Assembly: GCA_029863605.1 (NCBI GenBank)
Contig: JAOTVB010000007.1
Coordinates: 124,001 to 188,000 of the forward strand
Source of the DNA: Myxococcales bacterium
GTDB taxonomy: Bacteria > Myxococcota_A > Polyangia > Polyangiales > Houyiibacteriaceae
Length of the DNA: 64,000 nucleotides
Reading direction: 5' to 3'
Part shown: positions 12,486 to 18,449 of the stretch, in pieces
Layout of the letters: each line of letters starts with the position of its first letter
Numbering within the stretch: position 1 is the first letter of the stretch
Program-made: the position numbers and the translations under genes
The notes under the pieces: generated by a model
What the model was told of the DNA's origin: nothing
The model's input: the letters and a program-made list of their open reading frames with translations, nothing else
Database searches by the model: none

Positions 12486-14816
12486 CTATCTCGCGAGCGA
12501 AAGCACGACACTGCGTGCGCCTGGTAACGTTACCGTCAGCACGTCGCCATCGAGGTTCGTTTCCAAGGCTTGACCGGTGTCCGGGTCCAACAGGCGCGCG
12601 TCTGCAAACTGCCCCTCGATGCGAAATTGATCGGTCTGCTGCTGATAGCTTTCGTTGAAGAGGAAGTAGAGATCGCCGCCGACCACTTGGCGACGCGCCA
12701 CCGACATTCGGAACCCGTCTGAGCTGAGCGGGCCGAGCGATGGGAGCACGCCGGTATCCGTGATCGCGGCTGGGATTTCGTTCGCCGACGACACCATCCC
12801 GATGTCGGACTGCAAGCGATCCACGAGCGCTGCGACCATCGCGTCGCGGGAGTCCGCATCGACCAAGCCATCGGCGCGCTCTGGGAGATTCCCCATCCAA
12901 ACTACCGCGACTCCAGCGTCGGCCGCGTCGAGAACCGCCCGAAGGACTTCTGGGTCTATTGCATCGACGTTCTCGACGACGAGAGCACGAAAAGAGGCCG
13001 CACCGGCTCGTAGCTCACCTCCATCGCTGGTGGACGCCGCTAGCGCCGAACGGCTCAGGCGCGCATACGAAAAGCCCGCCCGTCTCAGCGCCATGCTGAT
13101 CTCCGATTCGAATGCCCTAGGCTCGACACCAAAGTTCGGGAAATTCTCTGCCTCCCACTCAGGGTAGAGCCAAGCCACCTCGGCCGCCGCCGCGCCGCGG
13201 CTCATCGCGTAGCTGAGCCTCGCCACCATGCGGTTGAGAGATGGAAGTGCGGCCCAGATCGCGGCATCCGGGTGGATGTCGAACGTGAGGTCGAGCGGCC
13301 CCGTAGAGAACGCGCTGTCCTCGAGCGGATGAAAAGGAAACCAGCGCTGCCCGTCTTGGTGAAGGTAGGGATACGCGTGACCGTGATACATCAGCCGATT
13401 GACACCGGCACTGAACGCTCGCCCCATGAGCAGTCGCGCCTCATCCTCGGTCAACTCGAGCGTCCCAACCGTGGGAAACGTTTCGCTGCTCACGAAGCGC
13501 TTGCCCCCCACGTGCGCGGCCGACGCCGCCAGACGGAGGAAGTCGTAGGAACCGCCACCGTAGAGCCCCTCGGACTCCGGGACGTCGGCCATGCCGTAAG
13601 CGTCGAGGACGTCGGCGTATCCACCATGGGCTTGCAGTCGAAAGTCTATGCCTCTGTTTTGCAGCCACGCACGGAGGGGGACGATGAGCTCTTCGACGAA
13701 CAAGGTGCCACGAAACGTCTCGTAGTCTTCTCGTGCTCGGAGACCGCGCTCATCCGTTGCCCGATAGCGCGGGGACCCGGTACCGAATAGCGTCGCGTAT
13801 TCGGACTCGCCTCCTTCCAAGAACAAGAAGGGGAGCATCGGCGCGACGTCGTAGCCAAGGGTAGACTCGAACTTCGCGCCGAACGCCGTCGTCCAAGGCA
13901 GCTCTCCGACGAGCTCGAAACTGTCGACGAAAACCGCGCGTGGAGAGCAATCGGAAACCGCATCGATCCACGCCCCAAACTCGCGATCGACGAAGGCCTC
14001 GACGCCTCTGCGATCGAGGTGGTCGATGATTCGCGCTCCCTCGATCGGTCCCGGATACGCATTGCCTACTGGAAAATGTTGCGTTCGATTCTCATAGATC
14101 GCAAAGACGCGGTGCGTGCCCTCGGGGACCTCCCACGACAACGTGCCGGCCTCCACGCTCGGCCCCAAATCGACGACATTCCCGAGAATGGCGGGCGAGC
14201 TCTCAGGCTCCTCGAGCACTTCGGCCGCAAGGACCGACATCACAGTGGCGTTTTCGTCGAAGCCGGCGATTGCTGGAAGGATGCTGTTCGTGGCGTCGAC
14301 CCAAGCAGGGGGCTCCGCCTCGGGCAACGGACCTCGGTAACTCAGTGGTCCCGTGAGCGTGAGCTCGGCTGCTACCAATTGACGCGCGCCGTCCTCGTCG
14401 ATGCCTGCGCCTCCCGTGGACCATCCGCTTCCGAGCGTGAGGTCCCAGGAGAGTCCGAGCTCCCGCGCGGTACATGCAGCGGTGCGTAGCCGCTCCAAGA
14501 ACGAAGCATCGCCGACGGTACGGATGCGAGAGTCGCTACTCAGATCAGCATTCGTGACGGCCGACATGAACGGCTGAATCTCGACTGCGCTGTAGCCCAG
14601 CTCCGCAAACTGGCTCAACTGCTCGCGCAGCGTAACGTCATCTACGGCCCCCCCGGGCCACCACCACCGCGCCTGCGGACCAAACTCGAGTGGGGGGTCG
14701 GCAAATACCGCGGCTGAGAATACGTCGTCGTCGACGCTGCCTGGGCTCTCCCCGTCACTGCACCCCAAGGCTAAAACGATCGCGCTCACCGCAGAGAAGA
14801 CTCGAAGCATGCCCAT
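12486..14816 (-). CDS. GH106-like glycoside hydrolase lipoprotein
   Basis: A 776-residue lipoprotein starting at ATG 14816 with signal ending VLALGC. Right after the linker it has PPLEFGPQARWWWPGGAVDD and GYSAVEIQPFM, the N-terminal signature of GH106 alpha-L-rhamnosidase-like enzymes; a long (beta/alpha)-barrel region follows (SFELVGELPWTTAF, DFRLQAHGGYADV) and a beta-rich C-terminal domain. It would act on a plant or algal glycan or pectin side chain at the cell surface or in the periplasm. Catalytic acids cannot be assigned with certainty by eye. Convergent with the crotonase gene; the malic enzyme gene lies upstream on the same strand. The family call comes from the N-terminal motif, so an uncharacterised relative is possible. 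Confidence 0.75.
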   Translation of the reverse strand: MGMLRVFSAVSAIVLALGCSDGESPGSVDDDVFSAAVFADPPLEFGPQARWWWPGGAVDDVTLREQLSQFAELGYSAVEIQPFMSAVTNADLSSDSRIRTVGDASFLERLRTAACTARELGLSWDLTLGSGWSTGGAGIDEDGARQLVAAELTLTGPLSYRGPLPEAEPPAWVDATNSILPAIAGFDENATVMSVLAAEVLEEPESSPAILGNVVDLGPSVEAGTLSWEVPEGTHRVFAIYENRTQHFPVGNAYPGPIEGARIIDHLDRRGVEAFVDREFGAWIDAVSDCSPRAVFVDSFELVGELPWTTAFGAKFESTLGYDVAPMLPFLFLEGGESEYATLFGTGSPRYRATDERGLRAREDYETFRGTLFVEELIVPLRAWLQNRGIDFRLQAHGGYADVLDAYGMADVPESEGLYGGGSYDFLRLAASAAHVGGKRFVSSETFPTVGTLELTEDEARLLMGRAFSAGVNRLMYHGHAYPYLHQDGQRWFPFHPLEDSAFSTGPLDLTFDIHPDAAIWAALPSLNRMVARLSYAMSRGAAAAEVAWLYPEWEAENFPNFGVEPRAFESEISMALRRAGFSYARLSRSALAASTSDGGELRAGAASFRALVVENVDAIDPEVLRAVLDAADAGVAVVWMGNLPERADGLVDADSRDAMVAALVDRLQSDIGMVSSANEIPAAITDTGVLPSLGPLSSDGFRMSVARRQVVGGDLYFLFNESYQQQTDQFRIEGQFADARLLDPDTGQALETNLDGDVLTVTLPGARSVVLSLAR

Positions 14817-14877
14817 CTCGTAGCAGCCACCGTAGAACACCTCACCCCGTCATGCGACCCAGACGGGTGACCTCCCG

Positions 14878-16590
14878 CTAGCGCTCGGCGAGGATCGGGA
14901 TGTAGCTCGGGTACCAGACCGCGCTGCGGATGGTTGCCTCGATCTCGTCGTCGGGGATCACTCGCCCGAGATGCGCCTCGCGTGCCGAGCGCACGACGGC
15001 ACACGCGATGTTGAAGCTCACTTCGCGCAGATCGTCCACGCTAGGGAAGATGGCGCCGAGCGCCAGGCGCTGTTCAGTTACGCAGCTCGCCAGCGTCTGC
15101 GCAGCGATCAAGAACATTTCGTCGTTGATTTCCCGTGTATTCGAGACGATGGCGCCCAGGCCAACCCCCGGGAAGATGAAGACGTTGTTGCTCTGCCCGA
15201 TCACGTGACGCTTGCCTTCGTAGGTCACGTCATCGTACGGGCTGCCGGTGGCCACCAGCGCCCGGCCGCCGGTCCATTCGAGGGCGTCTCTTGGAGTGCA
15301 CTCTGACTTCGAGGTCGGATTGGAGAGTGGCAGGATTAGGGGGCGGTCGACGTGCTTCGCCATCTCCTCGATCATTTCCCGGGTGAAGGCGCCCGGCTGG
15401 GCCGTCGCGCCGATGAGGATGGTCGGCTTGAACGCGCGAATCATCTCCACCGGGGTTGTGTCGGAGGACTGCGCGATCCCGTAGTGCTCGAGGCTCTCCT
15501 TGCTGAGCGCGAATTCCTGTTTGAAGGGCTCCTTGATCTCACGCTCGGCGTGCAGCAGACCCTTCGAGTCGAACGCAGCGATTGCGCGCTCGATCTCGTG
15601 TTCGGTGGCTCCGGCCTGGCGCATGGCAGCCGACGCCAACCGGGCAATGCCGATGCACGCGCCACCCGCTCCAATGAAGAGAATCCGCTGGTCCCGGATC
15701 GTCTGGCCCGTGATCCGAAGCGCCGCAAAGATGCCGCCTAGCGCCACCGCGGCGGTGCCCTGGATGTCGTCGTTGAAGCTCGCCACGCGCTTCTGGTAGC
15801 GCTCGAGAAGCGGGAACGAGTGCGTCTTCGCGAAGTCCTCCCATTGGATGATGGCGCGGGGAAACACGTCACGCACCGCCTGCACGAAGCGCTCGACGAA
15901 GTCGAAGTACGCCTGGCCGGTCAGCCGGCGCCCTCGATGTCCATTGTAGAGCGGGTCGTTCAGCAGCTCCTGATTGTTGGTGCCCACATCGAGGCTCACT
16001 GGAAGGCACTTGGACGGATGAATGCCAGCGCCCGCCACGTAAAGCGCCAGCTTGCCGACCGGAATCCCCATGCCACCGGCACCGAGGTCGCCTAGCCCCA
16101 GGATGCGCTCGTTGTCGGTGACTACGAACAGCCGTATGTCGTGGAAGGGCGCGCTCTCCAGGATCTCATGCACGTGCTCGATGTTGCTCGGCGTGATCCA
16201 GATACCGCGCGCTGAACGAAGAATGTGACTGAATTGCTCGCAGGCCAACCCGACTGTCGGCGTATAAACGATCGGCAGCAGCTCCGGGAGGTTCTCGACG
16301 AGCACCCGATAGAAGAGCACCTCGTTCAGGTCTTGCAGGCTCGTGAGCCCGATGTACTTCTCGAGGTCGGTCGACTTGGCGCGGATGTGCTCCAGCTCTA
16401 GCTCGACCTGCTGCTCGATTTCGAGCACCTGTTCCGGCAGTAGACCGTCGAGGCCGAGCTCTCCGCGCTCCTCTTTCGTGTAGGCCAGCCCTTTGTTCGT
16501 GGATGGGTTCTTGAGCAGCCAGACTCCCCGCTTGCGAGTCTCGATGCGTTCTTCCCCGCCGAGCTTTTGATCGTAGGTCTCGCCCTTCAC
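14878..16590 (-). CDS. maeA: NAD-dependent malic enzyme
   Basis: Oxidative decarboxylation of malate to pyruvate. The protein carries the malic-enzyme signature in order: LPIVYTPTVGLACEQF, RGIWITP, LGLGDLGAGGMGIPVGK, LPVSLDVGTNN, WEDFAKTHSFPLLERY, ASFNDDIQGTAAVALGG (metal ligands) and the Rossmann motif ILFIGAGGACIGIARL. The size (570 residues) matches large NAD-type enzymes. A GTG at 16590 has AGGAGG six bases upstream and gives an N-terminus of normal length; the longest frame starts with TTG at 16650 without a ribosome site. Divergent from the Tyr-rich lipoprotein gene with a 225-bp shared upstream region. Cofactor preference is inferred from overall similarity to MaeA. Confidence 0.93.
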   Translation of the reverse strand: MKGETYDQKLGGEERIETRKRGVWLLKNPSTNKGLAYTKEERGELGLDGLLPEQVLEIEQQVELELEHIRAKSTDLEKYIGLTSLQDLNEVLFYRVLVENLPELLPIVYTPTVGLACEQFSHILRSARGIWITPSNIEHVHEILESAPFHDIRLFVVTDNERILGLGDLGAGGMGIPVGKLALYVAGAGIHPSKCLPVSLDVGTNNQELLNDPLYNGHRGRRLTGQAYFDFVERFVQAVRDVFPRAIIQWEDFAKTHSFPLLERYQKRVASFNDDIQGTAAVALGGIFAALRITGQTIRDQRILFIGAGGACIGIARLASAAMRQAGATEHEIERAIAAFDSKGLLHAEREIKEPFKQEFALSKESLEHYGIAQSSDTTPVEMIRAFKPTILIGATAQPGAFTREMIEEMAKHVDRPLILPLSNPTSKSECTPRDALEWTGGRALVATGSPYDDVTYEGKRHVIGQSNNVFIFPGVGLGAIVSNTREINDEMFLIAAQTLASCVTEQRLALGAIFPSVDDLREVSFNIACAVVRSAREAHLGRVIPDDEIEATIRSAVWYPSYIPILAER

Positions 16591-16815
16591 TGCAGGCCTC
16601 CTGATGTCGGGCTTAGCGTAGAAGCTGTCCCGGTCGATCGGAAGAGCCAAGATTGGCTAAAAAGGGTCGAATCAGTCCCTTCGCCCCAAGAACTGCCTCG
16701 TGGACGCGGCGCCCTTAATCCAAACGCTCCATCCAGACGTAGCCCAGACGTGACAACACTCGCGGACCTCAGACCCGCGGAACCGATTGAATAGAAAGAC
16801 GGAGAGGAGTTCAGC

Positions 16816-17151
16816 ATGTTTCAACCAAAAAAGACGATCCCAAAGCTTGCTCTTGGTGCCCTCGCTCTCACCGGCTGCGGTGATCCGGGCGTCGCTGGGC
16901 CTGACAGCCAGAGGCAGTGCCTTAACGAAAAGACCGTGGCGGGCTACGGCGACTTCTACGGTGACTACTACGGCGGCGAGGGATACGGCGATCTAAACGG
17001 CTACGCAGACGGCTGCGCCAACGGGGACAGCTACTACGGCGGCTACTATGGCGGCGGCTCCGGGGATGGCACGGTTCTCCCCGATAACGACCCCAATCCG
17101 ACCAACGATCCGTTCTTGTCGGGCGGCGATAGCTTCTACAACGGCTACTGA
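16816..17151 (+). CDS. Small tyrosine/glycine-rich lipoprotein
   Basis: The 111-residue precursor has a lipoprotein signal ending LALTGC (lipid Cys at 21) after a strong GGAGAGGAG ribosome site. The 91-residue mature part contains 12 tyrosines, mostly next to Gly and Asp (GYGDFYGDYYGGEGYGDLNG, DSYYGGYYGGGSGDG), three cysteines counting the lipidated one, and an Asn/Asp/Pro-rich tail. It looks disordered or repetitive, with no enzyme motif. It lies 44 bp upstream of a sulfotransferase-like gene on the same strand, so the two are probably co-expressed. Tyr residues beside acidic residues are the type of site modified by tyrosylprotein sulfotransferases; see the findings. Function otherwise unknown. 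Confidence 0.7.
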   Translation: MFQPKKTIPKLALGALALTGCGDPGVAGPDSQRQCLNEKTVAGYGDFYGDYYGGEGYGDLNGYADGCANGDSYYGGYYGGGSGDGTVLPDNDPNPTNDPFLSGGDSFYNGY

Positions 17152-17195
17152 TCCCTACGGCATTGGATGACAGCGAAGAGCCACGGAGGATTCAG

Positions 17196-18059
17196 ATGAT
17201 CATCGTCACTGGCACCAAGCGTTCGGGCACTTCGATGTGGATGAAGCTACTGATCGAAGGGGGCTTCCCTTCGATCGGTAGCGCCTTCCCCAAGGACTGG
17301 GGTAGCACCATCAAGGACGCCAACCCGGGCGGGTTCTATGAGTCTGATCTGCGCGAAGGCGTGTACCACGCGACCAACCCGGATCCGAAGACTGGACACT
17401 ACCTGTTCCCCGAGGCCACGCGGCAACACGCACTCAAGGTGTTCGTGCCAGGGCTGATTCGAACCGACCGTGCGTACATCGACAAGGTGGTCGCAACGGT
17501 AAGGCCTTGGCGCGAATATGTGCGGTCGCTGGACCGTCTCTACACGATGGAGCAAGAGGCCAAGAACGCGCAGCGTGGCGAAGAGAAGCCGTGCGTCCCG
17601 CCTCCCGTCTACATCCCTGCGGCGCTCGAGTGGTGGACGCACAACTTCTCGCTGATCAGCGATGTGGTGACGCGTCGGTACCCGATGTTCATGGTGGCGT
17701 ACGATGCAGTGATCGAGAGGCCTGAGGCGACTGTCGGAGACGTCTTTGAGTGGTTGGGAGAAGGTGATGTCGCCCGCGCCGTAGCGCAGGTGCGGCCTCA
17801 ACTGAGGACGCAGGTCTCCGACCGTTGCCTGGAAGTCAGTGCCGCCGAAAGTGGACTCGAGCCAGCTGTGGTCGAGGTGTTCGATGAGCTTTACGAGACG
17901 GTCTTGCGAAAGCGTGAGATCGAGCAATCTTTCGTCGACCGCCTGAACGCGACCAACGAGCTACTACAGGAGCGCATTCGCGACGCGCTCAAGGACGCAG
18001 CCGTGCGCCGGCAAGAGCGCCGCAGGGCGATCGTAGATGCAAGGCTGCGGGCAGCGTAA
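17196..18059 (+). CDS. Sulfotransferase-like P-loop protein
   Basis: From ATG 17196 (GGAGG six bases upstream; the TTG at 17163 adds 11 residues) the protein has 287 residues. The N-terminal TGTKRSGTSMWMKLL fits the 5'-phosphosulfate-binding loop of PAPS-dependent sulfotransferases, and KVVATVRPWREYVRSLDRLY fits the strand and helix that bind the 3'-phosphate (R then S). The C-terminal 60 residues are charged helix. Relatives are annotated sulfotransferase family protein. It has no signal peptide, so it would act in the cytoplasm. Upstream neighbour is the Tyr-rich lipoprotein. Acceptor unknown; it may be a kinase-like P-loop protein instead, but the paired motifs favour sulfotransfer. Confidence 0.75.
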   Translation: MIIVTGTKRSGTSMWMKLLIEGGFPSIGSAFPKDWGSTIKDANPGGFYESDLREGVYHATNPDPKTGHYLFPEATRQHALKVFVPGLIRTDRAYIDKVVATVRPWREYVRSLDRLYTMEQEAKNAQRGEEKPCVPPPVYIPAALEWWTHNFSLISDVVTRRYPMFMVAYDAVIERPEATVGDVFEWLGEGDVARAVAQVRPQLRTQVSDRCLEVSAAESGLEPAVVEVFDELYETVLRKREIEQSFVDRLNATNELLQERIRDALKDAAVRRQERRRAIVDARLRAA

Positions 18060-18449
18060 TCACGGTGTCCAATAGCTCTTCCGTTGCAAGCTGATGGGCC
18101 CACCGTTCATGCGGCGGACGCTTTCCGCCGCGACATCGACGTCCATCCCCGCCGCGGTGACGAACAGCGGCTTGTGGCTTCGGCCCCGAAGCACACGCCT
18201 TTGGCCGTGAAAATCACCAAAAGGGTTCTTGGCGATGCCGATCACGTGAATTTCTTCGTTGAGCGCACGATGGAGGATGCAGGGAAGCTCGCGTTCGTGG
18301 AACTGACCAGGAGCATACGGAGCCACCCGCAGTATGAAGGCGAAGCGCTCCTCATGGCTTTCGCTCGAATCCCAATCTTTGTACACGACGCACGAGGCAA
18401 TGGCTGGGCCTTCATCCCCCTGGTAGTCGACATCGACACAGGCAAGCAT
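18060..18449 (-). pseudogene. Endonuclease V-like gene with internal deletion, probably inactive
   Basis: The 129-codon frame starts like an endonuclease V-like protein (ACVDVDY, the first metal-ligand Asp; later RELPCIL with the second acid) and ends like one (VIGIAKNPF, KPLFVTAAGMDVDVAAESVRRM). Between residues ~63 and ~64 the family's middle part, about 50 residues with the VDG-type catalytic Asp and the LGxHL segment, is absent without a frame change. The last 14 residues (GGPISLQRKSYWTP) do not fit the family; the +1 frame there reads a more helical HQLATEELLDTV, so a small frameshift near 18105 is possible. The stop abuts the stop of the sulfotransferase gene. No ribosome site is clear. 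A short real protein cannot be excluded. Confidence 0.6.

Follow-up and report, generated by a model that had tools for sequence, protein, structure and literature searches.

Does a tyrosine-rich lipoprotein gene that lies immediately upstream of a sulfotransferase-like gene in a member of the Myxococcota encode the substrate of its neighbour? A tyrosine-sulfation pair had been proposed here in an initial annotation of the window, by which we mean the whole 64,000-nucleotide stretch of DNA analysed. On balance we favour the reading in which a cytosolic, PAPS-dependent sulfotransferase acts on the lipoprotein whose gene precedes its own and sulfates tyrosines of that lipoprotein before export. 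The features on which this reading draws are the following.

16816-17151, + strand: lipoprotein, the putative substrate (open reading frame and lipobox; purifying selection against the ortholog)
16816-16878, + strand: signal peptide through the lipobox Cys, with a PKKxIP motif, the proposed leader (common to lipoproteins upstream of other enzyme copies in the genus)
17152-17195, + strand: spacer of 44 bp with the ribosome-binding site for the enzyme (sequence)
17196-18059, + strand: PAPS-type sulfotransferase-fold enzyme, 287 amino acids, ATG start (motifs, conservation, AlphaFold model, fold search)
17196-17243, + strand: 5'-PSB region MIIVTGTKRSGTSMWM (Arg9, Gly11, Thr12, Ser13 and Trp15 invariant in 99 homologues)
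17340-17342, + strand: Glu49, candidate catalytic base (the sole invariant Glu/Asp/His between the two PAPS motifs)
17502-17528, + strand: 3'-PB motif RPWREYVRS (Arg103 and Ser111 invariant)

The upstream gene encodes a lipoprotein of 111 amino acids with the signal peptide MFQPKKTIPKLALGALALTGC and the lipobox LTGC, and its reading frame bears out the earlier count of 91 mature residues, rich in Tyr, Gly and Asp, of which 12 are Tyr. The ATG of the enzyme gene (17196) lies 44 bp beyond the lipoprotein stop codon, as had been reported, and both PAPS motifs ascribed to this second gene, TKRSGTSMW and RPWREYVRS, are indeed present in its frame. Both genes are on the + strand and each is preceded by a GGAG-type ribosome site; starting the enzyme instead at a TTG (17163) would lengthen it by 11 residues. 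The window lipoprotein has no Pfam or NCBIfam match, a single-sequence search of genome contigs returned a near-identical ortholog as the sole match, and a search of a plasmid collection returned none. A partner without a database match could point to a low-complexity reading frame that abuts an unrelated gene by chance, but this explanation is hardly credible, being contradicted by the dN/dS of 0.17 for the lipoprotein (0.14 for the enzyme, both against the nearest relative, the 96%-identical MAG Myxococcales bacterium 21_Jan_SF_Bin46, G017), by the signal peptide family and by a pairing that is repeated in genus and phylum. At these values both genes, enzyme as well as lipoprotein, evolve under purifying selection, and all 11 of the aligned Tyr residues are kept between the window and this relative.

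Around the pair lie genes of other kinds. An open reading frame on the - strand (18060-18449, 129 amino acids) ends right after the enzyme gene and scores 23.7 bits against a cut-off of 23.4 bits for the Pfam Endonuclease V profile, over about 60 of its 198 positions; judged by this match, it is perhaps a truncated or diverged endonuclease V. On the other side, a malic enzyme gene (14878-16650) adjoins one for a GH106 alpha-L-rhamnosidase-like protein (12486-14840, - strand).

The identity of the downstream enzyme rests on its fold and its conserved residues. Known sulfotransferases depend on three residues: one that is basic in the 5' motif, a Ser in the 3' motif and, in between, a Glu or His (PMC6637879). 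Fitting candidates for these roles are Arg9, Ser111 and Glu49, each of them present in 99 of 99 core homologues, a set that omits 12 distant, long-branch copies. The position of the catalytic His of SULT enzymes seems, in an alignment made by eye, to correspond to Phe83. Arg53 (17352-17354) is invariant in all 47 copies that have a lipoprotein partner and in 85 of the 99 core copies, and is a candidate specificity residue. The Pfam profile PF13469 (Sulfotransfer_3) gives the window enzyme 17.1 bits, below the curated cut-off of 27, and is matched at E <= 0.1 by 17 of 20 relatives, the best at 1.2e-6. A sequence-profile search of the PDB found nothing better than E 0.09, with SULT1A1 and StaL at E 0.4-1, which is not decisive. 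The AlphaFold model of the enzyme (pLDDT 85.9, pTM 0.85) has the sulfotransferase P-loop fold, and the top PDB matches listed in a fold search are all PAPS sulfotransferases, with CurM (Z 12.1), TPST1 (Z 11.9) and TPST2 (Z 11.5) effectively tied. By modelled fold and conserved motif residues, then, the downstream gene product is a sulfotransferase, with PAPS turnover predicted. The genome also encodes the PAPS-synthesis functions that the initial annotation had suggested looking for, namely an APS kinase, with CysD and CysN/C-like genes too (named by eye from sequence). Because no signal or membrane anchor precedes the 5' motif, the enzyme is probably cytosolic.

A fold equally close to small-molecule and to polysaccharide sulfotransferases is also what could be cited for a different acceptor, such as a glycan, a lipid or a small molecule, with the lipoprotein binding or displaying the product through a Tyr-rich binding surface. 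We regard this as unlikely, although it is the explanation to which several enzyme clades without Tyr-rich neighbours, described below, would also lend themselves. It poorly explains both the conservation of signal peptides on replaced mature domains and an excess of Tyr, but not of Phe or Trp, in several unrelated lipoprotein families.

The first of these two points is seen within the genus, where the enzyme is present in 9 of 19 genomes. Eight enzyme copies have, 19-47 bp upstream, a lipoprotein whose signal peptide is of the PKKxIP type (pattern M-x-x-PK[KR]xIP...C) and whose Cys-rich domain is very different from the Tyr/Gly-rich mature sequence in the window; the window's own genome contributes one of the eight, a paralog. 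The copy in G006 has the remnant of such a gene upstream, one genus copy starts at a contig end, and the Tyr/Gly-rich partner accompanies only the window copy and its ortholog. The enzyme tree places the window clade inside that of the copies with Cys-rich partners, so the mature domain was apparently exchanged, with signal peptide and enzyme retained. The pairing to be looked for in related genomes does recur, as one of enzyme and PKKxIP lipoprotein, whereas the Tyr/Gly-rich partner is exceptional in the genus.

The second point is the amino acid composition of the partners. At 12-13% Tyr the window lipoprotein stands well apart from 81 control lipoproteins (median 2.2%, maximum 5.9%), which were taken from 40 stretches of the same or related genomes and from the window, with a gene caller that includes a lipobox term and was applied equally to partners and controls. 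Tyr makes up 6.3% of 18 representative partners picked by the analyst against 2.2% in the controls (p = 6e-10), and the excess is also found when the partners are called by the control rule (20 lipoproteins, p = 7e-11). The p values here and below overstate independence, since the type of partner is tied to the enzyme clade (6 changes, compared with 22 on average after shuffling, on a quick tree with several long branches). Phe is unchanged in the same comparison (p = 0.57), Trp slightly lower, and Arg and His are depleted. Counted without regard to orientation, Tyr-rich open reading frames (at least 8 Tyr per 75 residues) lie near 26% of enzyme loci and in 7.5% of control windows. The Cys-rich family of the genus and its near relatives falls into three groups: median Tyr is 7.5% (5-10) in PKKxIP copies adjoining the enzyme, 8% in PKKxIP copies elsewhere and 1% in copies that have a different signal peptide and no enzyme (p = 1e-4 for the first group against the last), whereas Phe stays at 4% throughout. 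A Tyr-specific excess in several unrelated partner families favours tyrosine as the acceptor.

Thr, too, is slightly enriched in the partners, and this, together with the close pairing with lipoproteins, might be taken to mean that the partner is sulfated elsewhere, on Ser or Thr or on an attached glycan. Such a site is improbable, since the residue in specific excess across families is Tyr, and the Thr excess lies largely in Thr/Asp/Pro-rich linkers of some families (judged by eye).

One part of the original proposal is weaker than first put. Metazoan TPSTs prefer, without strictly requiring, an acidic residue just before the Tyr, and many of the lipoprotein's tyrosines had been described as lying beside Asp, Glu or Gly, a setting that such enzymes favour. 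Asp or Glu directly precedes only 1 of the 12, and across the partners it stands at -1 of 15.6% of Tyr and of 20.9% of Phe, with 1.08 acidic residues within three positions of a Tyr and 1.06 within three of a Phe. The tyrosines lie in surroundings no more acidic than those of other positions and are no nearer to Asp or Glu than are the Phe residues of the same proteins, and we have dropped local acidic context as a sign of TPST substrates.

Beyond the genus, 113 distinct enzyme loci were gathered across the phylum, and the enzyme clades adjoin several unrelated lipoprotein families: the Cys-rich lipoproteins (family A), lipoproteins with a Tyr-rich loop whose scaffold can be aligned while the loop cannot (family B), and lipocalin-like lipoproteins, upstream of or convergent to the enzyme, with one weak Lipocalin_4 match (family C). 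When 318 genomes of the class were searched, family B turned up in 23 of the 41 that have the enzyme and in 1 of the 277 that do not; these counts are not phylogenetically independent, and the family B protein of that one enzyme-free genome is Tyr-poor. In putative Nannocystis-like genomes family B lies ~70-110 kb from a related enzyme copy and is still Tyr-rich; the Cys-rich partners of these genomes have just 3-4% Tyr. PKKxIP Cys-rich copies away from the enzyme are in enzyme-bearing genomes in four of five cases. The exception is G001 (92% complete), which has a Tyr-rich PKKxIP lipoprotein and no enzyme match, as might be expected if the tyrosines served another end, such as Tyr cross-linking or metal binding, and adjacency reflected co-regulation. 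That account is decidedly improbable, given that Tyr-rich lipoproteins are also convergent to the enzyme, and so not confined to one operon, and given the distribution of family B.

Many enzyme copies lack a Tyr-rich lipoprotein neighbour and lie beside cytochrome c peroxidase, DAHP synthase or GAF-type genes; from this context, they may act on other substrates. In large-genome relatives the members of a separate enzyme clade (L126, L129-L134) immediately follow di-haem cytochrome c peroxidase-like genes, and no lipoprotein partner was seen at these loci. A distant clade (L077-L080) is flanked by a DAHP synthase-like gene and by a tetratricopeptide-type lipoprotein gene that overlaps its end. 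Large-genome relatives also carry tandem family B genes with Cys-Tyr-Tyr-rich loops (L192-L197, L207-L212), ~70-110 kb from the nearest sulfotransferase of the family B clade. One genome (G020; L023, L204) has a lipoprotein on each side of the enzyme: a Cys-containing lipoprotein gene, then the sulfotransferase, then a family B-like gene that includes a Tyr-rich stretch.

The signal peptide offers a possible means by which one enzyme could serve such different partners. Among lipoproteins near the enzyme, 20 of the 32 with at least 5% Tyr have an [IV]P pair located 8-14 residues ahead of the lipobox Cys, compared with 2 of the 34 that are Tyr-poor and with 4 of 81 controls. Within the Cys-rich family the motif separates Tyr-rich from Tyr-poor copies (11/0 versus 1/11), with one exception, L217, in whose full signal peptide the motif is present too. 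This link is exploratory, having been noticed in the same data that scored it; searches centred on other families added no further genomes. The PKKxIP signal peptide is perhaps read by the enzyme as a leader. A broader proposal, possible if somewhat doubtful, is that lipoprotein tyrosine sulfation is leader-directed throughout the phylum, with the [IV]P pair marking precursors for the cytosolic sulfotransferase ahead of Sec and mature domains freely swapped as long as they stay Tyr-rich.

We tentatively propose the following course for tyrosine sulfation at this locus. The enzyme would use PAPS in the cytosol, with Glu49 as the candidate catalytic base and tyrosines of the partner lipoprotein as the acceptor, and the PKKxIP signal peptide would aid recognition while leaving the mature part free to change. 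Because PAPS is cytosolic and the enzyme has neither signal nor anchor, sulfation would precede export of the precursor through the Sec lipoprotein pathway. The resulting lipoprotein, at the surface or in the periplasm, would be strongly anionic and could bind other molecules. The tyrosine-sulfation pair first proposed is supported in part: the pairing is conserved, the enzyme has the fold and motifs of a sulfotransferase and the partners have an excess of Tyr, while the acidic context is a weak argument and the Tyr/Gly-rich partner is exceptional within the genus.

Metazoan TPST1 and TPST2 share with the window enzyme the fold (Z 11.5-11.9) and, as proposed here, a protein tyrosine acceptor. 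The window enzyme, however, has no Golgi anchor, and Asp at -1 is mostly absent from its partners. The base of TPST2 lies 21 residues after the 5'-PSB Arg, whereas Glu49 lies 40 residues after it. The closest counterpart in bacteria is the RaxST-RaxX-RaxAB system of Xanthomonas, in which the peptide RaxX is sulfated by a tyrosylprotein sulfotransferase, RaxST (PMC6637879, PMC9372746), before it is secreted (PMC9372746). A review mentions, as an unpublished observation, that the neighbours of bacterial TPST genes are often genes for exported proteins (PMC9372746). As in the Xanthomonas system, a bacterial sulfotransferase, here predicted to be cytosolic, is encoded with an adjacent small exported substrate that we propose is modified before export, and the enzymes share an Arg in the 5'-PSB, a Ser in the 3'-PB and a base between them. 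In contrast, the putative substrate here is a Sec lipoprotein with a lipobox and many tyrosines rather than a double-glycine-leader peptide with one, no RaxAB-like exporter is encoded next door (the neighbours being malic enzyme, the endonuclease V-like frame and others), and the enzyme belongs to a separate Myxococcota family with a marginal Pfam match. The locus also resembles RiPP precursor/enzyme pairs, with a conserved N-terminal region, a replaced mature part and one enzyme, except that a lipoprotein signal peptide would take the place of the leader and the product is a full-length lipoprotein.

A literature search for bacterial or Myxococcota precedents found the Xanthomonas system alone, and no published description of a sulfotransferase paired with a Tyr-rich lipoprotein was found. 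Under the mechanism that we favour, the pairing would be a variant of the bacterial tyrosine sulfation of RaxST and RaxX. Taken from genomes and models, the evidence suggests that bacteria of this phylum sulfate tyrosines on surface proteins, a modification demonstrated to date in very few bacteria. If this is true, a whole phylum would sulfate its surface lipoproteins, the enzyme and its substrates would be identified and open to test, and a signal peptide would double as a modification leader; the enzyme could moreover supply a means of making sulfotyrosine proteins in bacteria.
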